In this document: in pieces, positions 34,843-43,295 of the stretch | How the letters are laid out: each line of letters opens with the position of its first letter | How positions within the stretch are numbered: position 1 is the first letter of the stretch | Source: Pedobacter puniceum | GTDB lineage: Bacteria > Bacteroidota > Bacteroidia > Sphingobacteriales > Sphingobacteriaceae | Direction: 5' to 3' | DNA length: 64,000 nt | Assembly: GCF_009674685.1 (NCBI RefSeq) | Contig: NZ_WKJI01000001.1 | Location: 372,001-436,000, forward strand | Position numbers and translations under genes: made by a program | Notes under the pieces: generated by a model | Seen by the model: only the letters and a program-made list of their open reading frames with translations | Told to the model about the DNA's origin: nothing | Databases searched by the model: none

Positions 34843-35163
34843 ATGGACGCAGAAGAATTAGCTTTTTTGAAAGATTGGGAGGTTAGAAGAAAGAGATGGA
34901 GTTGGGGTAAAGTTTTCTTTAATACTGTTCTTTATGCGGTTGTTCCTATGGTCTTAACCATTGATTTTATAAATTTTTTCATTATTGCTGATACAAATTT
35001 TGGCTTTTTTAGTTGGGAGCATTTATGGGAGTTTATAAAAACACTTTTTATTTTTTCTTTAATAATTGGCTCGTCTTTTGGAGTGTTCTATTGGTATTCT
35101 AACGAGCTAAAATTCCAAAGACTTACCCGAAAACAAGAAAAAGAGAAGAAAAACACTCATTAA
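34843..35163 (+). CDS. Small two-helix membrane protein, unknown
   Basis: A 106-residue protein: an acidic and basic start (MDAEELAFLKDWEVRRKRWS), hydrophobic segments at about 24-46 (FFNTVLYAVVPMVLTIDFIN) and 66-84 (TLFIFSLIIGSSFGVFYWY), and a basic tail (RLTRKQEKEKKNTH). The ends are probably cytoplasmic. I do not recognise the family. It follows pyrB after 4 bp, so it is in the pyr transcript, although a functional link is not evident. Confidence 0.75.
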   Translation: MDAEELAFLKDWEVRRKRWSWGKVFFNTVLYAVVPMVLTIDFINFFIIADTNFGFFSWEHLWEFIKTLFIFSLIIGSSFGVFYWYSNELKFQRLTRKQEKEKKNTH

Positions 35164-35277: not shown

Positions 35278-38200
35278 ATGCTAAAAAAAATTACTGTATT
35301 AACATCATTCATATTTTTTGGTTTACAAATTCAGGCACAAATTCCGCTTCAATATGATTTAAATAATAAGTATAAAAAAGCTTTAGAGCTATTAGAGCAG
35401 AAAAAGTATGTAGCAGCTTCTTCTATTTTTCAGGAAGTAGAGAAAATAAGATATACCACCTCTACACAAGTTGATGCCAGATTAAACATCTCAGAGATTA
35501 AGATTAATGCGCAGTACTACAGAGCTTTATGTGCATTAGAACTCAAAAATGAAGATGCTGAGGAACTGTTTCTCAAATTTATCAGGCAACATCCTGAAAA
35601 TGCTAAAACAAAACAGGCATATTTTCAAGTAGGTAAATCATATTTTCAGCAAGGTAAATATCAGGATGCTTTAAATTGGTTTACAAAAGTAAGTTCGATA
35701 GATTTGGTTGGTGAGGATGAAACCGAATATAAATTCAAAACCGCTTATGCATATTTTGAAACCAAGGATTATGCAAATGCAAAACCTTTATTTGGTTTAG
35801 TTAAAGATCGTCCGTCTGTTTATCAAGAGCAAGCCATATATTATTATGCTTATATCTCTTATCTCGATAAAGACTATAAAGTTGCCTTAACTAATTTCGA
35901 GAAGCTTAAAAATTCTAAAAACTATGAGTCTAGCTACCCATATTATATCTCCGCTATTTATTTCTTAGACAAGCGTTACGATGATGTTTTAGCTTATACT
36001 ATTCCTATTTTAAACACTACAAAGCAGCAGTACGAGACAGAAATGTTCAGGATTGTAGCTGCGTCTTATTTTGCTAAAGAAAATTACAATGAAGCGCTTA
36101 AATATTATGAGCGTTTTATGACTAATGATAAAGGTAAGACACAAAACAATCAAGACTCTTATCAAATAGGCTATACTTATTATAAGCTAAAAAATTATAA
36201 TAAATCTATAGATCAATTAATCAAGCTTAATAAAGACTTAAATAATTACAGCCAATATGGCTTATATACTTTAGGGGATTCTTATATCCAAACCAATAAC
36301 AAACAAGGTGCAAGAAATGCTTTTTTAGAAAGTTCTAAGCTAAATTTTGATAAACAAATTAAAGAAGATGCGCTACTTAATTTCGCTAAGCTTTCTTACG
36401 AACTTCAGTTTCACAACATCGCACTAGATGCTACTCAAGAGTACATTAAAACTTATCCGCGTTCTGCTAAAATTAATGAGGCCAAAACCTTATTGGCTAA
36501 TGTATTATTAAGTACTAAAAACTACCGAGATGCTATCGATATTTTAGAAACTATCAATAATAAAAATGAAGATGCACAGGAAGCTTATCAAAAGGTAACA
36601 TATTATAGAGGTTTAGAGCATTTTAATGAAAGAGCTTTTGAGAATGCCATTGGTATGTTTTTGAGGTCTAATAATTTTCCTTTAGATAAAGATATACATG
36701 CTTTGGCTACTTACTGGTGTGCAGAAGCTATGTATGAAGTGCGGAAATTTGGGGAATCTGTAGATTATTTCGAGAACTTCTTGAAAATGCCAGCAGCAAG
36801 GAAAACAGATTTATTTAACTATGCCAATTACGCCTTAGGTTATGCTGCTTTAGAAGGAGAAAATTATCCAAAAGCTGTTACTTATTATAACAGGTTTTTA
36901 AATGGTAGCGAGAAAGATAGTAAGACTATTAATGATGCTACATTAAGACTAGCTGATGCTTATTTCGGCGCTAAAAACTATGGTAATGCTTTAACTTATT
37001 ACAACAGAATTATAGCGCTTAATACAAGCAGTAAAGATTACGCTTTATTCCAAAAAGGAATCATTGAAGGCTTACAAAATCAGCCTCAAGCTAAAATTGC
37101 AACTTTACAATCTTTGTTGAGCCAATTTCCTAATTCTAATTATGCTGATGATGCTGGTTTTGAAATTCCTTATACCTACTTTTTAATAGGTGAGGGAGAA
37201 AAAGCTAAAGCAGATTTAACCGCCTTTATAGCTAAATATCCTAGAAGTGCTTACGTTTCTAGAGCGCTTATTACCATTGGCTTGGTACAATATGACCAGA
37301 AGAATGATAATGAAGCTTTAGCTACTTTCAAAAAGGTAGTGAGCGATTACAAATCAACTGACGAGGCTCAACAAGCTATAAAATTAATAGAGAGAATTTA
37401 TGTTGACATGGGTAACGCATCAGCATTTATAGATTATGCTAATTCAACCTCTATAGGAAACTACACTTTAGCAGAACAAGATAATATCATGTTTCAGGCG
37501 GCTAATAATATGTATTTAAGAGGAGATTGGGCAGGTGCTGTAGAATCTGTAAATGCATATTTTGATAAATTCCCTAAAGCCATCAAAGATAAGCATGCAA
37601 AATTCATCAGGGCAGAGAGCTATAAAAACTTAGGTAAATTTGCTCCAGCTATTATAGATTATGAGTACATCCTTAACGATTGGACAAGCGAGTTTACAGA
37701 GAAAGCCTTAATCAGTATCTCAAACATCTACTTAAAAAATAAACAATATAACGAGGCTATTGTACACCTTAAAAAGTTAGAAATTGCTTCTGAATATAAA
37801 TCAACCTACCAATTTGCTATCAATAATTTAATGGTGGCTTATGAAGGCTTAGCAGTCCCAGATCAAACTTTAAAGTATGCTCAAATTATAAAAGACTACG
37901 AAAAATCATCAGAACAAGATAAAAACTTAGCTACTTTATATGCAGGTAAGGCTTATTTGCTAACCGCAGATACAACAACGGCTGTTAAAGAATTAACTTT
38001 CTTGTCTAAAAATGCTAAAACTATTCAAGCGGCAGAGGCAAAATATCTTTTAGCCAATATTCAATATTTGAAAAAGGATTATAAAGAATCTCAAAAAACA
38101 TTATTTGATTTAATTAATAACCTGCCAAATTATGATTATTGGGTAGCTAAAAGTTTTATCCTTTTAGCCGATAATTATATTGCTTTAAAAGATGTTTTTC

Positions 38201-38301
38201 AAGCTAAAAGCACTCTACAAAGTATTATAGAGAATTATGAAGGAGATGATGATATCCTGCCAACAGCTAAAGAGAAACTTCAAGCCATCACCAATAAGTA
38301 A
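35278..38301 (+). CDS. Large exported tetratricopeptide repeat protein
   Basis: A 1007-residue protein with a signal peptide (MLKKITVLTSFIFFGLQIQA) and an almost continuous TPR array, for example KYKKALELLEQKKYVAASSI, YFQQGKYQDALNWFTKVSSI, YYKLKNYNKSIDQLIKL and KAVTYYNRFLNGSEKDSKTI. More than 20 helix pairs can be counted roughly. The repeats resemble those of YbgF/CpoB and BamD, periplasmic helpers of Tol and Bam complexes. It is the first gene of the operon that continues with a barrel, an HU/SPOR protein and TolQ, TolR and TonB-like genes, so it probably forms the periplasmic scaffold. In Bacteroidota this gene order is recurrent but little studied. Confidence 0.88.
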   Translation: MLKKITVLTSFIFFGLQIQAQIPLQYDLNNKYKKALELLEQKKYVAASSIFQEVEKIRYTTSTQVDARLNISEIKINAQYYRALCALELKNEDAEELFLKFIRQHPENAKTKQAYFQVGKSYFQQGKYQDALNWFTKVSSIDLVGEDETEYKFKTAYAYFETKDYANAKPLFGLVKDRPSVYQEQAIYYYAYISYLDKDYKVALTNFEKLKNSKNYESSYPYYISAIYFLDKRYDDVLAYTIPILNTTKQQYETEMFRIVAASYFAKENYNEALKYYERFMTNDKGKTQNNQDSYQIGYTYYKLKNYNKSIDQLIKLNKDLNNYSQYGLYTLGDSYIQTNNKQGARNAFLESSKLNFDKQIKEDALLNFAKLSYELQFHNIALDATQEYIKTYPRSAKINEAKTLLANVLLSTKNYRDAIDILETINNKNEDAQEAYQKVTYYRGLEHFNERAFENAIGMFLRSNNFPLDKDIHALATYWCAEAMYEVRKFGESVDYFENFLKMPAARKTDLFNYANYALGYAALEGENYPKAVTYYNRFLNGSEKDSKTINDATLRLADAYFGAKNYGNALTYYNRIIALNTSSKDYALFQKGIIEGLQNQPQAKIATLQSLLSQFPNSNYADDAGFEIPYTYFLIGEGEKAKADLTAFIAKYPRSAYVSRALITIGLVQYDQKNDNEALATFKKVVSDYKSTDEAQQAIKLIERIYVDMGNASAFIDYANSTSIGNYTLAEQDNIMFQAANNMYLRGDWAGAVESVNAYFDKFPKAIKDKHAKFIRAESYKNLGKFAPAIIDYEYILNDWTSEFTEKALISISNIYLKNKQYNEAIVHLKKLEIASEYKSTYQFAINNLMVAYEGLAVPDQTLKYAQIIKDYEKSSEQDKNLATLYAGKAYLLTADTTTAVKELTFLSKNAKTIQAAEAKYLLANIQYLKKDYKESQKTLFDLINNLPNYDYWVAKSFILLADNYIALKDVFQAKSTLQSIIENYEGDDDILPTAKEKLQAITNK

Positions 38302-38345
38302 AGAATTTATTTTATCAGCATTTCTACAATAAGAAGTACAATTAG

Positions 38346-40085
38346 ATGATAAACATGATATTAAAATATAAGATAAAAGCACTTTTAAGTTTAGGATTGA
38401 TGGTTTCTTTACCTGTTTTTTTACAAGCACAGGTTAAACCAGAAGAGCAAAAACCTAAAGCCACTCAGCAGCAACCTACAGAGGAAGAAAGCAAAACATC
38501 TGTTACAGAGGAAATAGAGGTTGTTAGAGAATATAAGCCTATTTTGGCTGATGCTGTTAAAATAAGACGTAATCCAGATTTAAACAGTAACAAAGCTTTT
38601 AATCCTAGAGTTCGGTATAATTTATTAGACAAAAGATTAGAGCTTAACTCAGAAATCAGGACTTTAGAAGCGCAGCAATTAAAGCCTATTAAAGATGAAG
38701 ATTTGCAAAATAACTACGCAAAAGCTGGTTTAGGTAATTTGGGGACTACTTTGGGTAGTTTACATTTAGGTACTGGCAGAGACCAAGCGCTACAAGCTGG
38801 TTTTAATTTTGACCATTGGAGTATGAGTGGTAAGTTAAATCAGCAAAAAATGTCTGAACAAGATTTAGGTATTTACGGTAGAAGTATAGGCGAGCAAATT
38901 GTATTAGATGGAAAGATTAATTATAACCGTAGAACTAATTATTTTTATGGTTTAGACCCGGCAGGTTCTTTTACCAATTCAGACCCAGTTAAGCAAAGAT
39001 TTAATTTTATTGAAGGTAAGGGCGAACTTTATAATCGTGTTGATGCTTATGATGAAAATAAACTAGCTTACGCTGCTCAGTTATACGGTTATTTATTCAA
39101 TAATATTTTTGAAGGGAAAGAAAATACCATTATTGTTTCTGGTGGTTTAAGCAAAAACATTAGTAAGTTTCAAATTGGTGCAAATGCCAATTTAGATTTT
39201 ACCACCACTAGAGATAGAGGATATGGTTCCTTAAATAATCATATTTTAAAATTAAATCCTTTTGTTAAAATAGATGGCGAGCAATTTAAAGTTGTTGCAG
39301 GTATCAATTACGTGAATGAATTTGGTGGCGATAACCAACGTATGAACTTATTTCCTGCCGCTAGTATAGATTTTACCCTTATTAAAAATTACCTGTCTGT
39401 TTTTGGTGTTTTAGGTGGCGATGTTCAGAAAACTCGTTTAAAAGATTTAAGTTATACCAATCCATTTTTAAATGAGAATATCAACATTAGAAACCAAATA
39501 GAAAAATTTAGTATAGAGGGAGGTGTAAAAGGTACTTTATCTGCCAATATTGGTTATAAAGCATCTGTACATTATAAAACGATTGGAGATTTTAGTTATT
39601 TCGTAAATGATTCTACCAGATTACAAGCTTTTCAAGTTGAATATCTAACAGAAAACAGTAATATTTTAGGTTTAACAGGCGAGCTTAACGTTCAATTTTC
39701 AAAAGCCTTTAGGTTAGATGGTAAGCTAGAGTTAAATCAATACAACTTAAAAAACGAATTAAATGCTTGGTATTATCCTGGTGTTAGATTAAGCTCTACG
39801 GCATCATTTAATATTACCGAGAAACTTAAAATAGATGCTGACATTTATTTACAAGGAGAAACTAAAGCGAAGTTGTATACCACATCATCAGCAGACCCCA
39901 ATGATTTTCAAGTAAGAACCATCAAAGCTTTCGCTGATTTAGGTGCTGGAGCATCTTATCAGATAAATAAAAAGTTTGGTGCATTTTTAAGAGTTAATAA
40001 CTTATTAGGTACTGCTTATGAGCGCTATTTGTTTTATCCAAACTACGGATTTAACATACTTGGTGGTGTAAGCTATGGTTTTTAA
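38346..40085 (+). CDS. Outer-membrane beta-barrel protein, TonB-receptor-like without plug
   Basis: A 579-residue exported protein. After the signal peptide (MILKYKIKALLSLGLMVSLP region) comes a glutamine- and glutamate-rich stretch, then EIEVVREYKPILADAVKIRR, a conserved N-terminal segment of this group. The rest consists of about 20 alternating strands and ends in RVNNLLGTAYERYLFYPNYG and a final aromatic residue, as in TonB-dependent receptors. A plug domain is not visible. Start may be ATG 38346 or 38355. It follows the TPR gene after 44 bp and is followed by the HU/SPOR gene after 47 bp. Confidence 0.8.
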   Translation: MINMILKYKIKALLSLGLMVSLPVFLQAQVKPEEQKPKATQQQPTEEESKTSVTEEIEVVREYKPILADAVKIRRNPDLNSNKAFNPRVRYNLLDKRLELNSEIRTLEAQQLKPIKDEDLQNNYAKAGLGNLGTTLGSLHLGTGRDQALQAGFNFDHWSMSGKLNQQKMSEQDLGIYGRSIGEQIVLDGKINYNRRTNYFYGLDPAGSFTNSDPVKQRFNFIEGKGELYNRVDAYDENKLAYAAQLYGYLFNNIFEGKENTIIVSGGLSKNISKFQIGANANLDFTTTRDRGYGSLNNHILKLNPFVKIDGEQFKVVAGINYVNEFGGDNQRMNLFPAASIDFTLIKNYLSVFGVLGGDVQKTRLKDLSYTNPFLNENINIRNQIEKFSIEGGVKGTLSANIGYKASVHYKTIGDFSYFVNDSTRLQAFQVEYLTENSNILGLTGELNVQFSKAFRLDGKLELNQYNLKNELNAWYYPGVRLSSTASFNITEKLKIDADIYLQGETKAKLYTTSSADPNDFQVRTIKAFADLGAGASYQINKKFGAFLRVNNLLGTAYERYLFYPNYGFNILGGVSYGF

Positions 40086-40132
40086 GGGCAATATTTTTTG
40101 ATAGGATAAAAAAGACTATTTTTACAACATCA

Positions 40133-41236
40133 ATGGATATTTCCTTCAATATAAAAGATATTTTAGAAAAGAATAATCTGGCAATTTTTCCAGGTTTAGG
40201 TGTATTTTATAAAAAAAGACAAGAGGGTTTTTTTGATGAAAATTTACTTGTTTTTCATCCACCCAAAGAAACCATTCAGTTTTCTACCATCACTCCAGAA
40301 GAAGTTGAAAATCCTGTTTTAGATTATATTTGCTATACTCGCAAAGTTTCTCCAGCCTCAGCAGATTATTTATTAACCCAGTTTGTAACGCAGTTAAAAG
40401 ATATTTTAGCTCAGCAAAAAGAATTGCCATTAAATGGCTTAGGTAAATTAGTAGCGCATGATGGTGATTTGGTTTTTGAAGAAGAAAAGGCTTTAGAAAC
40501 CAACTTATCTTATTTCGGGTTACCACTGGTAAATATAAAGCCCGATGCGATAGTAGAATCTAAAGTTCTTTTAGAGGATTTAGAAGAAGAAAAAATAGAA
40601 GAACAAGCGTCTTTTTCTTTGGCAGAGCAAGCGCTTAACGCTTCTTTATCTGGATCAACAGAAGTAAAGGAAAAAAAGAAATCTAAAAGATGGTTGTTTA
40701 TTTTAATTCCTGTTATGCTAGTTTTAATTTCTGCTATTGCTCTTTATTTCTTTAACCCTGATTTGTATAATCAATATTTCAATCCAAATCTTAACAATAA
40801 AGATGTTAAAGTGGTTATGCCATTAGGTGTGCCAAAAGAGCAGCAAGATAATGCTATAAGTCGGCAAGATTCATCTTTAGCAGACTCTGTTTACAGTGAA
40901 ATTGAAAAAAATGCTAAAGCACAAGGTTTAGAGATAGAAAAAGTAAAAGATTCTACTAATGTAACTGTTAGCAATAAAGCTGTACCAAATAAGGCAGGTA
41001 TACGTTATGAGATTATTATTGCCGCTTGGCAAACTAAAGCTAAAGCAGAGCAGCATGTTAAAAAGCTAAAAGAAAACGGAATTAATGCTTTTATTGTAGA
41101 AGATGCGGATGGCCCTATGATAAAAATAAGTGCCGCTACTTTTTACAATAAAGCAGAGGCAGATGCCGAGTTAAAAAGAATTAGAGAAGAATTAAATCCA
41201 GAAGCTTTTATAAAGCCTATAAAACCTTTAAAATAA
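40133..41236 (+). CDS. HU-CCDC81-type and SPOR domain membrane protein
   Basis: A 367-residue protein with three parts. Residues 1-125 carry the bacterial HU-CCDC81-like fold (FNIKDILEKNNLAIFPGLGV, LPLNGLGKLVAHDGDLVF) that is found at the N-terminus of many Bacteroidota SPOR proteins. A single membrane helix lies at about 187-207 (WLFILIPVMLVLISAIALYF) after a lysine cluster. Residues 290-367 form a SPOR domain (IRYEIIIAAWQTKAKAEQHV, then INAFIVEDADGPMIKIS), which binds denuded peptidoglycan at division sites. Topology is N-terminus in the cytoplasm, SPOR in the periplasm. In the operon it could connect the machine to the cell wall. Confidence 0.88.
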   Translation: MDISFNIKDILEKNNLAIFPGLGVFYKKRQEGFFDENLLVFHPPKETIQFSTITPEEVENPVLDYICYTRKVSPASADYLLTQFVTQLKDILAQQKELPLNGLGKLVAHDGDLVFEEEKALETNLSYFGLPLVNIKPDAIVESKVLLEDLEEEKIEEQASFSLAEQALNASLSGSTEVKEKKKSKRWLFILIPVMLVLISAIALYFFNPDLYNQYFNPNLNNKDVKVVMPLGVPKEQQDNAISRQDSSLADSVYSEIEKNAKAQGLEIEKVKDSTNVTVSNKAVPNKAGIRYEIIIAAWQTKAKAEQHVKKLKENGINAFIVEDADGPMIKISAATFYNKAEADAELKRIREELNPEAFIKPIKPLK

Positions 41237-41245
41237 ATTATACAT

Positions 41246-41938
41246 ATGTTTTTACAAGATATCGGAGTAGATACTTTATCAAATACTATTCAGGCTATGC
41301 AAGCCCCACAGCAAGTAGAAGAATTGAGCTTGTTTAATTTATTAACCAAGGGTGGGTGGGTAATGATACCACTAGCTATATTAGCCTTATTAGGTTTAAT
41401 TATATTTTTTGAGCGCTATTTTACTATCAGAAAAGCTGCAAAGGATGAATCTCAATTAACCATGCAAGTGCGTTCTAGCATAAAAAGCGGTAACCTAGAC
41501 TCTGCAATAGCTATCTGTAAAAGTAGTAATACACCTATTGGCAGAATGCTACAAAAAGGTTTGTTAAGAATAGGAAGGCCCATTAAAGATATTGAAGGTG
41601 CTATAGAAAATGTAGGTAAACTAGAGGTTTCTAAGCTTGAAAAAAATATAGGCATTTTAGGTATCATAGCTGGTATTGCACCCATGTTAGGTTTCGTAGG
41701 TACAATTATTGGGGTAATTACGATTTTCCATGATGTATCTGTAAAGGGAATCATAGAAATTGGTACCATTTCTGGAGGTTTGTATGTAAAGATGATTTCA
41801 TCTGCAACTGGTCTTATCATAGGCATTATTGCTTATATTTTTTATAATATCTTAAATATCATGGTTGATAAGGTGATCCTGAAAATGGAGACAGATTCAA
41901 TAGAATTTATTGACTTGCTAGAAGAACCAGGAAGATGA
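41246..41938 (+). CDS. TolQ/ExbB/MotA-type proton channel protein
   Basis: A 230-residue inner-membrane protein with three helices: GGWVMIPLAILALLGLIIFF at about 36-55, GILGIIAGIAPMLGFVGTII at about 135-155, and MISSATGLIIGIIAYIFYNI at about 183-202. The second carries the conserved proline-glycine pattern APMLGFVGTIIGVI of the family. With TolR or ExbD subunits such proteins form a channel that turns the proton (or sodium) gradient into mechanical work. Its last four bases overlap the TolR-like start (ATGA). Whether it is functionally Tol or Exb cannot be told from sequence; the operon favours a Tol-type role. Confidence 0.93.
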   Translation: MFLQDIGVDTLSNTIQAMQAPQQVEELSLFNLLTKGGWVMIPLAILALLGLIIFFERYFTIRKAAKDESQLTMQVRSSIKSGNLDSAIAICKSSNTPIGRMLQKGLLRIGRPIKDIEGAIENVGKLEVSKLEKNIGILGIIAGIAPMLGFVGTIIGVITIFHDVSVKGIIEIGTISGGLYVKMISSATGLIIGIIAYIFYNILNIMVDKVILKMETDSIEFIDLLEEPGR

Positions 41939-42333
41939 ATTTAAGAAAGCGAAAAAGACCACATGTAGAAGTACATACGGCAGCGTTAAACGATATTATG
42001 TTTTTCCTGTTGTTGTTCTTTCTTTTGGCTTCTGCGGTAGTGAATCCAAATGTGGTAAAATTATTTTTACCAAGATCTAGTTCTGGGCAAGCTGTTCCGC
42101 AAAAAACAATTAATGTTTCTATAACCAAAGAATTAGAATATTTTGTTGAAAAGGAGCAAGTACCTTTTGAACTTCTAGAGCAAAAGATTTTACCTTATCA
42201 GCAAGCTAATCCAGATTTAACCATTATTTTATTTGCCGATAGAACCATAGCTATAGAAAATATTGTGAGTTTAACAGATATAGCCAACAAACTTAAAATA
42301 AAGCTTGTTTTAGCAACAGAAACTAAGAAATGA
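41935..42333 (+). CDS. TolR/ExbD-like biopolymer transporter
   Basis: A 132-residue protein: a basic N-terminus (MNLRKRKRPHVEVHTAAL), one membrane helix with the ion-binding aspartate in ALNDIMFFLLLFFLLASAVV (Asp20), and a periplasmic domain with NPDLTIILFADRTIAIENIV. Family length and layout. It overlaps the TolQ-like gene by four bases and the following TonB-like gene by four bases (ATGA each), so translation of all three is coupled. Confidence 0.93.
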   Translation: MNLRKRKRPHVEVHTAALNDIMFFLLLFFLLASAVVNPNVVKLFLPRSSSGQAVPQKTINVSITKELEYFVEKEQVPFELLEQKILPYQQANPDLTIILFADRTIAIENIVSLTDIANKLKIKLVLATETKK

Positions 42334-43157
42334 TTGACCTCTTAAAATCAAATTCTGATAATAATTACCCAAAGGCAATAGCTTGCTCTTTAGGCATTCT
42401 TATTGGTTTTTTGGTGTTAAGCATTTTTTATATCATCAATACCGCTGAGCCACCTGAAGAAGTTGGTGTAGGCGGAATTATTGTTAACTATGGTACTTCT
42501 GACGAAGGTATGGGTAGCGATTATATGAGTATTGAGGAACCTTCTGTAGATCCTAATGCAAATTTAACAGCTCCTGATAAGATTGTACCTGATGCTAATA
42601 CGGCCGAAACGCCTACGACCCAAAATAATGCTAATGATATTGTAACTCAGGACATGGAGGATGCGGTGGCTGTTAAAACTAAAACAAATGCTAGTAGTAC
42701 TGCCCCAAGTCAAAATACAGATGTAAAAGAAAGTAAACCTACCATTAACCAAAACGCTTTGTACAAAGGCAAAAAGAATAATGGCTCTGGTGCTGGCGAT
42801 GGTATTACAGGAACACCAGGCAATCAAGGTAAACCAACCGGAGACCCTTTAGCTAATAATTATGATGGTACAGGGTCTGGTAATGGCGGTGTGGCTCTTG
42901 ATCCAAAATCTAGGAGATGGTCAGTCAGACCAACTATCAAAGATGATGGACAAGAAAACGGCAGAGTTGTGATAAAATTTAGAATTGATAAATCTGGAAA
43001 TGTAATTTTGGCTCAAAACGACAGAGGTACGACTATCAGCAACACGGCTTTAATTGAAAAATGTGAGCAAGCTGTTCTTGCTTCAAAACTAATACCCGTT
43101 GAAAATGAATCGAGTTTTCAAGATTATCAAGTGATATTTAAGTTTATTTTAAAGTAG
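42330..43157 (+). CDS. TonB/TolA-like energy transducer
   Basis: A 275-residue protein: a short cytoplasmic start, a membrane helix at about 15-36 (AIACSLGILIGFLVLSIFYI), a long low-complexity periplasmic spacer rich in T, N, D and G (about 40-205), and a C-terminal globular domain with NGRVVIKFRIDKSGNVILAQ and TALIEKCEQAVLASKLIPV, the TonB/TolA C-terminal pattern. It completes the TolQ-TolR-TonB-like set and likely reaches the outer-membrane barrel of the same operon. It is the last gene of the operon. Confidence 0.88.
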   Translation: MIDLLKSNSDNNYPKAIACSLGILIGFLVLSIFYIINTAEPPEEVGVGGIIVNYGTSDEGMGSDYMSIEEPSVDPNANLTAPDKIVPDANTAETPTTQNNANDIVTQDMEDAVAVKTKTNASSTAPSQNTDVKESKPTINQNALYKGKKNNGSGAGDGITGTPGNQGKPTGDPLANNYDGTGSGNGGVALDPKSRRWSVRPTIKDDGQENGRVVIKFRIDKSGNVILAQNDRGTTISNTALIEKCEQAVLASKLIPVENESSFQDYQVIFKFILK

Positions 43158-43214
43158 ATGAAATTTATTTTAAATATGAAGTGCTCATTTTGAACAATCT
43201 AACACACTTTATAA

Positions 43215-43290
43215 GCATCTCAAATCTCATATCGCAATACGCATATCTAAAAAGGCATCTCAATACTCACTTCTCAATACGCATATCTAA
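43215..43290. repeat. Tandem pair of 36-bp units built of heptanucleotides, upstream of folC
   Basis: Bases 43215-43250 and 43255-43290 match at 31 of 36 positions, spaced 40 bp apart; the last 16 bases (CAATACGCATATCTAA) are identical. Inside each unit the sequence runs in steps of seven (ATCTCAA, ATCTCAT, ATCGCAA, TACGCAT). The folC GTG start lies 6 bases past the second copy. Confidence 0.75.
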
Positions 43291-43295
43291 CAAAA

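Follow-up and report, generated by a model that had tools for sequence, protein, structure and literature searches.

The window, a 64,000-nucleotide stretch of Pedobacter puniceum DNA, contained six tightly packed open reading frames (ORFs) on its + strand at positions 35278 to 43157, encoding in order: a TPR protein; an outer-membrane barrel; a HU/SPOR protein; a TolQ/ExbB protein; a TolR/ExbD protein; and a TonB-like transducer. An ORF check found all six, together with the ATGA coupling of TolQ and TolR, at the coordinates claimed in the original prediction. By these coordinates the TPR and barrel genes were 44 nt apart, the barrel and HU/SPOR genes 47 nt, and the HU/SPOR and TolQ genes 9 nt; 4-nt ATGA overlaps joined TolQ to TolR and TolR to the transducer. 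In a promoter and terminator scan of the locus, promoter-like sites were no more frequent than in shuffled sequence. Of 80 named Sphingobacteriaceae loci, 65 had all six genes without interruption. Among the remaining 15, eight reached a contig end, two had one gene masked by an antisense ORF, and five had other ORFs separating the barrel and HU/SPOR genes, which counts against reading the set as a single machine.

The TPR protein (35278..38301, 1007 aa) carried a signal peptide without a lipobox Cys and was predicted to be periplasmic. It matched Pfam TPR families and scored 186.5 bits against TIGR02795 (cut-off 90.1) and 115 bits against TIGR03302 (cut-off 81.4); the TIGR02795 and BamD model cut-offs were both exceeded through summed repeats. 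CpoB/YbgF were its top natural PDB matches. An identity with the T9SS protein PorW/SprE was rejected (NCBIfam equivalog cut-off 250, score 51.5 bits).

The barrel protein (38346..40085, 579 aa) matched no Pfam family. Its model contained approximately 22 strands by our own count, spanning residues 124-578, and Foldseek searches with this model returned only TonB-dependent transporters as top matches. Comparison with BtuB gave VIA Z 21.2 (420 aligned, rmsd 3.7), and a PDB search with the barrel profile matched ferric enterobactin receptors weakly. Model and plug search agreed with the earlier description of the barrel as plug-less: no Plug domain was detected (E <= 0.01) in any of 29 barrels, and only ~45 residues separated a conserved tail (residues 55-79, 38508..38582) from the first strand at residue 124. 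No other 25 residues of the protein were as well conserved as this tail, which was disordered in the model and, by sequence likeness, held a conserved TonB-box-like motif at the position expected for a TonB box; one distant barrel member had LPEFVITGTA close to its N-terminus. The protein is predicted to be a 22-strand barrel of the TonB-dependent-transporter type that has no plug and keeps a flexible, TonB-box-like N-terminal tail. With such a barrel and tail, the description Ton-derived fits as well as Tol-like.

The HU/SPOR protein (40133..41236, 367 aa) combined, by Pfam and topology, an HU-CCDC81 part, a transmembrane (TM) segment and a SPOR domain. The HU-like region (residues 1-125, 40133..40507), predicted to be cytoplasmic, scored 26.0 bits for HU-CCDC81_bac_1 (cut-off 26) and 38.5 bits for HU-CCDC81_bac_2 (cut-off 35). 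The TM segment (residues 188-206, 40694..40750) was preceded by a net charge of +4, and this positive inside flank placed the SPOR domain (residues 291-360, 41003..41212; PF05036, 1.6e-10) outside the inner membrane, in the periplasm. A sequence search of the PDB with this protein gave chance-level matches only. The HU-like region had a net charge of -8 and a pI of 4.7, the corresponding regions of family f34 had net charges of -16 to -22, and the NPxT arm motif was absent from all 19 aligned proteins. This part also evolved fastest among the products of the six genes. Being acidic and without NPxT, it is a doubtful link to DNA, and HU as a DNA anchor was rejected on these grounds. The suggestion that the protein joins the division site to something in the cytoplasm accordingly found no support as a DNA or nucleoid role. 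In two other families ftsK adjoined the locus.

The TolQ/ExbB-type channel subunit (41246..41938, 230 aa, three TM segments) matched MotA_ExbB (PF01618, 5.3e-22) and the TolR/ExbD-type subunit (41935..42333, 132 aa) matched ExbD (PF02472, 1.3e-21). In alignment the two proteins shared conserved Thr and Asp residues with E. coli, Asp20 of the smaller subunit occupying the position of the TM Asp in both TolR and ExbD of E. coli. Neither protein's score reached the TolQ or TolR equivalog cut-offs. The TonB/TolA-like transducer (42330..43157, 275 aa) matched no Pfam family and consisted of a TM segment (residues 13-38), the family signature NYGTSDEGMG after it, a disordered linker and a C-terminal domain (residues 195-275). 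Structure searches with this domain returned TonB C-terminal domains first and TolA domains more weakly, and a TonB fold is predicted for it. Two observations on the transducer count against the machine reading: the SxxxH motif of TolA/TonB was missing from the window's transducer and its family, and its C-terminal domain was only 37% identical to the same domain of its nearest relatives, whereas the barrel tail had not changed. SxxxH or TxxxH-like motifs were found in transducer relatives of families f20, f21, f25, f31 and f44. In the part of the published account covered here, a Cytophaga strain deleted for 'tolA' (chu_0135), a gene that may or may not correspond to this transducer, digested filter paper and grew like the wild type, an observation that likewise counts against the machine reading.

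The genome of the window encoded only two TolQ/ExbB (PF01618) genes: the one at this locus and another in an ExbB-ExbD-ExbD-TonB set. TolB_N (PF04052) was found in 0 of 19 genomes, with positive controls matched, and Pal (TIGR02802) was above cut-off in 0 of 19. The absence of pal and tolB from the locus was borne out and, for TolB_N, extended to the whole genome, in which seven OmpA-domain matches all fell below the Pal cut-off. A lack of identifiable tol-pal loci in Bacteroidetes is also described in the covered passages of a 2025 paper (PMC12204202). A true Tol-Pal system was rejected for want of TolB and Pal, and an ordinary Ton uptake locus for want of a plug and for its fixed partners.

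Conservation of the gene order, on which the original prediction had been staked, was found across Bacteroidota, with the six-gene order recurring in families beyond Sphingobacteriaceae. Outside the class, one locus (L286) read TPR-barrel-HU-HU/SPOR-TolQ-TolR-transducer, two (L287 and L288) extended from TPR to TolR, and one (L289) held the whole set minus the SPOR gene. Because the order is conserved so deeply across the phylum, chance and mere local synteny were ruled out. The TPR gene lay immediately 5' of the barrel gene in 57 of 62 loci (L026-L037, L045, L076-L107 and L251-L267): 54 by script, two in which a mechanical start codon made the ORFs overlap (L083, L261) and one by tblastn (L267). 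The five exceptions were four f34 loci and L265, at a contig start. This count was made outside L001-L025, which were short, and L038-L044. Among the latter, L038, L039 (which starts near a contig end) and L043 had no TPR or barrel gene beside the other genes, the pair being located elsewhere (L251-L254), and L040, L041, L042 and L044 had the HU/SPOR gene without the remaining genes. TPR was directly 5' of the barrel in seven of ten further loci picked by TPR. In several families of the class, TPR-barrel and HU/SPOR-TolQ-TolR-transducer were located at separate loci, which counts against a single machine; the gene set is two modules. Among the genomes listed, the barrel was present in all 49 of the window's class; the listed genomes without a match were all from outside the class, with 83 more non-matching entries beyond these. 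A further 18 of 18 genomes were also positive, and 2.2-Mb genomes retained the barrel.

Like Tol-Pal (TolQ-TolR-TolA-TolB-Pal-CpoB), the set has an operon organisation, a PMF motor of the TolQ/TolR family, a TM transducer whose C-terminal domain is of the TonB/TolA type, one peptidoglycan-binding domain, and a TPR protein whose repeats resemble those of CpoB/YbgF. Unlike Tol-Pal, it is without TolB and Pal and has a barrel as its outer-membrane partner, its peptidoglycan binding resides in SPOR on an inner-membrane protein, and its TPR protein is ~4x the length of CpoB. With the Ton system it shares an ExbB/ExbD-type motor, a TonB-like domain, a 22-strand barrel and a TonB-box-like tail. It differs in having no plug domain, dedicated one-to-one genes, and fixed TPR and HU/SPOR partners, and in standing beside a separate Ton operon in the same genome.

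The six neighbouring genes appear to encode a proton-driven machine spanning both membranes of Bacteroidota cells, which can be read as a Tol-like machine derived from a Ton system. The energy-driven, Tol-Pal-like machine originally proposed survives in its parts list and its different outer-membrane partners; its barrel is of the Ton type, so that Ton-derived is equally apt, and it comprises two modules rather than one set. From the parts, their order and conservation, the tail conserved in the barrel, and the folds predicted for the barrel and the transducer domain, we give even chances to a force-transducing machine of the Ton/Tol superfamily coupling outer membrane, wall and septum. TolQ-TolR would form the proton-driven motor in the inner membrane. 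The transducer would cross the periplasm and dock by its C-terminal domain on the conserved N-terminal tail of the barrel, paired as an added beta-strand. The TPR protein would contact the periplasmic side of the barrel, which it would probably close or gate, and act as a scaffold. The HU/SPOR protein may bring the machine to denuded peptidoglycan where the cell divides; the division role is our inference. Outer membrane, cell wall and septum would thereby be coupled in an energised manner, a task that Tol-Pal performs in Proteobacteria.

The Ton-like parts also lend themselves to a dedicated transport machine, in which barrel and TPR protein form a channel energised for import or export, with SPOR serving only as a wall anchor. 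The barrel has the fold of a TonB-dependent transporter, the transducer domain is nearer TonB than TolA, and TonB-dependent barrels can serve secretion, as reported for Oar and PopC in Myxococcus in the portion of the source covered. We consider this possible but unlikely, as the barrel has no plug, and its presence in every listed genome of the class and in the 18 further ones, its retention in reduced genomes and the SPOR link fit housekeeping better than single-substrate uptake. The separation of the modules in several families, and TPR repeats resembling BamD, CpoB and PorW/SprE, would suit an operon held in common by two systems: an outer-membrane biogenesis pair (or T9SS accessory) of TPR protein and barrel, and a second Ton system of TolQ-TolR-transducer. 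Recurrence of the combined order in deeply separate families, the sub-threshold PorW/SprE score and the TonB-box-like tail retained on the barrel make this improbable.

A machine that, during segregation, links nucleoid and septum through a DNA-binding HU-like part is less probable still, given the acidity of that region in the window and in f34, the missing arm motif and the fast divergence. The HU-CCDC81 matches and the adjoining ftsK of L104 and L106 speak for it, and Burroughs et al. are reported to have predicted, in 2017, that bacterial HU proteins of the CCDC81 type take part in chromosome partition. Returning to the Ton-derived, Tol-like machine, the set makes a good candidate for the system of outer-membrane maintenance believed to be absent from Bacteroidota. 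Somewhat short of even odds, we would suggest that Bacteroidota never lost their Tol system and instead have an ancestral, phylum-wide Tol-like machine that arose separately out of a Ton system, in which a TonB-dependent transporter lost its plug, kept its TonB box, had the plug replaced by a giant TPR protein and acquired a septum-seeking SPOR partner, becoming an energised outer-membrane tether rather than a transporter. If true, this would be a second, independent path by which a nutrient-uptake system (Ton) gave rise to one for envelope upkeep (Tol); a barrel needing an external protein plug would be unusual.

No paper describing the six-gene set was found in the open literature by title and abstract start, with subscription journals mostly uncovered and novelty thus unproven. 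In the passages covered, cohesion of outer membrane, wall and septum without Tol-Pal is described as an open question, with further such systems remaining to be found (PMC12204202); a motor-driven set conserved phylum-wide makes that question directly testable in Bacteroidota. The same passages describe motor-vWA transducer clusters, which likewise have a TPR gene beside tolQ/tolR-like genes and a new transducer; there, the transducer has a vWA rather than a TonB domain, and no barrel or HU/SPOR partner is mentioned. They also propose PorE, a CpoB-TolB-Pal fusion lipoprotein, as the Tol-Pal substitute of Bacteroidetes, a published rival that counts against a Tol-Pal-like role for the present set. 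Like the present set, PorE has TPR repeats and is put forward as the phylum's missing tether of the outer membrane; unlike PorE, the set includes a motor and a transducer of its own and is without an OmpA-type domain. The two could coexist.

The six-gene set occupied 35278-43157 as six head-to-tail open reading frames (ORFs), with intergenic gaps of 44, 47, and 9 nt followed by two 4-nt ATGA overlaps. A Pfam domain search agreed with the domain list of the original prediction: TPR repeats in the first product, HU-CCDC81_bac_1, HU-CCDC81_bac_2 and SPOR in the third, MotA_ExbB in TolQ, and ExbD in TolR. The barrel had no Pfam match and the transducer was taken by no Pfam model. The six-gene observation was confirmed, while its interpretation as an energy-driven machine was supported in part. 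The set is a Ton/Tol-type variant whose conservation extends across the phylum, with a putative function. No description of it was found in the open literature searched, and the accessible parts of PMC12635249, PMC12611786, and PMC9389320 made no mention of it.

The genome belongs to a member of the Sphingobacteriaceae, and its TPR protein shared 98% identity with the Pedobacter glucosidilyticus counterpart. Upstream of the set lay pyrR-pyrB (identified from sequence by eye), and folC lay downstream. Between pyrB and the TPR gene, a 106-aa membrane ORF (34843-35163) was retained in the homologous loci L026-L028, whereas the remaining family members examined lacked it. The interval from the transducer gene to folC (43158-43295) held short direct repeats (AATACGCATATCTAA and the like), whose length differed among relatives.

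Members of the genus and family largely kept one order, TPR-barrel-HU/SPOR-TolQ-TolR-transducer, with folC next in most cases. All six genes were uninterrupted in 65 of the 80 named loci that the TPR profile retrieved. Of the other 15, eight ran off the contig, two had an antisense ORF that hid one of the genes, and five had extra ORFs between barrel and HU/SPOR. The barrel was present in all 49 listed genomes of the class (Bacteroidia), in a listing that left out 83 non-matching rows, and in another 18/18 genomes, of which three measured about 2.2-2.4 Mb. In a 62-locus sample, many of whose loci belong to one genus, the barrel was directly preceded by the TPR gene in 57 loci (a count that includes hand corrections); an HU/SPOR gene followed the barrel in 32 and TolQ followed it in 26.

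Ten loci from outside the class were selected for carrying a long TPR protein. The barrel was the next gene in seven, with a SPOR-bearing gene after the barrel in six of these and TolQ plus TolR in four. L286 carried the whole set (TPR, barrel, HU, HU/SPOR, TolQ, TolR, transducer), and its transducer had a TonB_C domain. The TPR-barrel pair of L103 was followed by TolQ and TolR. The remaining three loci belonged to one family (f34), in which TPR stood apart and the barrel headed HU/SPOR-TolQ-TolR-transducer; profile comparison found f34 barrels homologous to window-type barrels (99.9%, E 8e-31). The predicted conservation of gene order in Bacteroidota therefore held, being intact in 65/80 loci and recurring in families outside the class, and because of this recurrence the order is probably ancestral to the phylum. 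TPR matches were only partial in 5 of 21 genomes (G031, G035, G036, G040, and G044), so the set was not universal among those genomes. In two families outside the class, ftsK lay beside the barrel/HU/SPOR genes (L104 and L106), and lolA was also near the set in L106.

Breaks of the set within the window's family (Sphingobacteriaceae) fell between barrel and HU/SPOR. Within the window's own genus, small genomes had TPR-barrel apart from HU/SPOR-TolQ-TolR-transducer, and two genomes of family f16 had TolQ-TolR-transducer-folC at a different locus from TPR-barrel. The HU/SPOR gene stood without the other genes in four loci (L040, L041, L042, and L044). In the draft genome G006 the TPR-barrel pair occurred twice, each time on a short contig (L253 and L254), reflecting either a strain mixture or a duplication.

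The window's genome contained two PF01618 genes, one being the set's TolQ and the other the ExbB in an ExbB-ExbD-ExbD-TonB operon; at least two were found in 19/19 genomes. This Ton operon (L218) had two ExbD-like genes and lay beside nuo-like genes. In a 33-row tree, the class's TolQs, whether inside the operon or at separate loci, grouped at 80/87 (below the starred support level), apart from Ton ExbBs; TolQs of f34, f44, and L262 were placed without resolution. The TolR Asp and one TolQ Thr aligned with their E. coli counterparts. Both the pair of 4-nt overlaps and the presence of a second motor would point to a TolQ-TolR channel reserved for the set's task.

An AlphaFold2 model of the barrel from 40 family sequences (pLDDT 72.8, pTM 0.70) had low confidence at residues 1-120 and strands from residue 124 on, 22 by our count on the predicted model. 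Its best 50 Foldseek matches were all TonB-dependent transporters, with BtuB at the top (E 1.6e-15); the VIA comparison with BtuB (2guf) gave Z 21.2 over 420 aligned residues at rmsd 3.7. Among 29 class-wide members, two matched the TonB-receptor barrel family and none matched the Plug family at E <= 0.01, bearing out the description of the barrel as plug-less. The most conserved 25 residues of the whole protein were tail residues 55-79 (EEIEVVREYKPILADAVKIRRNPDL), outside the barrel. Distant members had short strand-like motifs near their N-termini, such as LPEFVITGTA (L289). The mature E. coli TolB chain starts EVRIVIDSG, its TolA-binding epitope. From this conservation and these motifs, likened to the TolB start and to TonB boxes, the tail qualifies as a candidate docking strand.

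The HU/SPOR protein (40133-41236) had an HU-like region, a transmembrane (TM) segment at 188-206, and SPOR at 291-360. A net charge of +4 before the TM segment predicts the HU side inside and the SPOR side outside. The HU region was acidic in the window (net charge -8, pI 4.7) and in two f34 members (-16 and -22), and the NPxT motif occurred in 0 of 19 aligned proteins. Protein binding is more likely than DNA binding. The protein evolves fast, at about 70% identity between the window and L027 versus 96-98% for its neighbors.

The predicted lack of pal and tolB at the locus was upheld. OmpA-domain matches occurred in all 19 genomes, seven of them in the window's genome and none at the six-gene locus, and Pal exceeded the cut-off in 0/19. 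TolB_N was found in 0/19 genomes, with E. coli, Caulobacter, and one Bacteroides matching as controls; the Bacteroides match shows that some members of the phylum do have TolB_N. The set would combine a motor, a transducer, and an energized barrel for which TPR acts as lid or scaffold, and SPOR would place this machine at the septum. Since a plug-less 22-strand barrel would leak unless closed and TPR is its constant partner, TPR would be the obvious candidate for closing it. A 2025 paper (PMC12204202) reports no identifiable tol-pal loci in Bacteroidetes, and PorE, a CpoB-TolB-Pal fusion lipoprotein, is a different Tol-Pal substitute proposed there; the present data are neutral toward PorE. 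In Cytophaga hutchinsonii, deleting a Pal-like gene reportedly raised vesicle numbers about six-fold with no division defect, and cellulose digestion and growth were normal after tolA and tolB deletions; those genes may or may not belong to the present set.

The transducer was predicted to have a single TM helix (13-38) joined by a disordered linker to a folded domain (195-275). The best Foldseek matches of this domain were TonB C-terminal domains, led by Neisseria 9dc4 (E 5.5e-4, prob 1.00), then E. coli, Pseudomonas, and other TonB domains, with TolA domain III lower. After the TM helix the family had a signature, NYGTSDEGMG in the window and NFGTTDFGSG, NLGFTDTGSG, and NYGIDEAGSG in other families, that was absent from the compared stretch of the genome's own Ton TonB. 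SxxxH or TxxxH, named in PMC12204202 as the motif through which TolA and TonB bind the motor, was found in transducers of members of f20, f21, f25, f31, and f44 and was absent in those of f1, f16, and f34.

The window transducer C-terminal domain (42897-43157) was 37% identical to those of its closest relatives, L026 and L027, while the first 189 residues were 95-96% identical; the switch was sharp in the DNA. Besides itself, the domain had no match above 48% identity in 31 genomes. The divergence looks like a domain exchange, perhaps an escape from phage or bacteriocin docking at this domain. A second transducer (L033:9976-10806) also had a C-terminal domain more diverged than the remainder of the protein (65-66% identity versus 85-86% for the N part), so this domain may undergo exchange readily.
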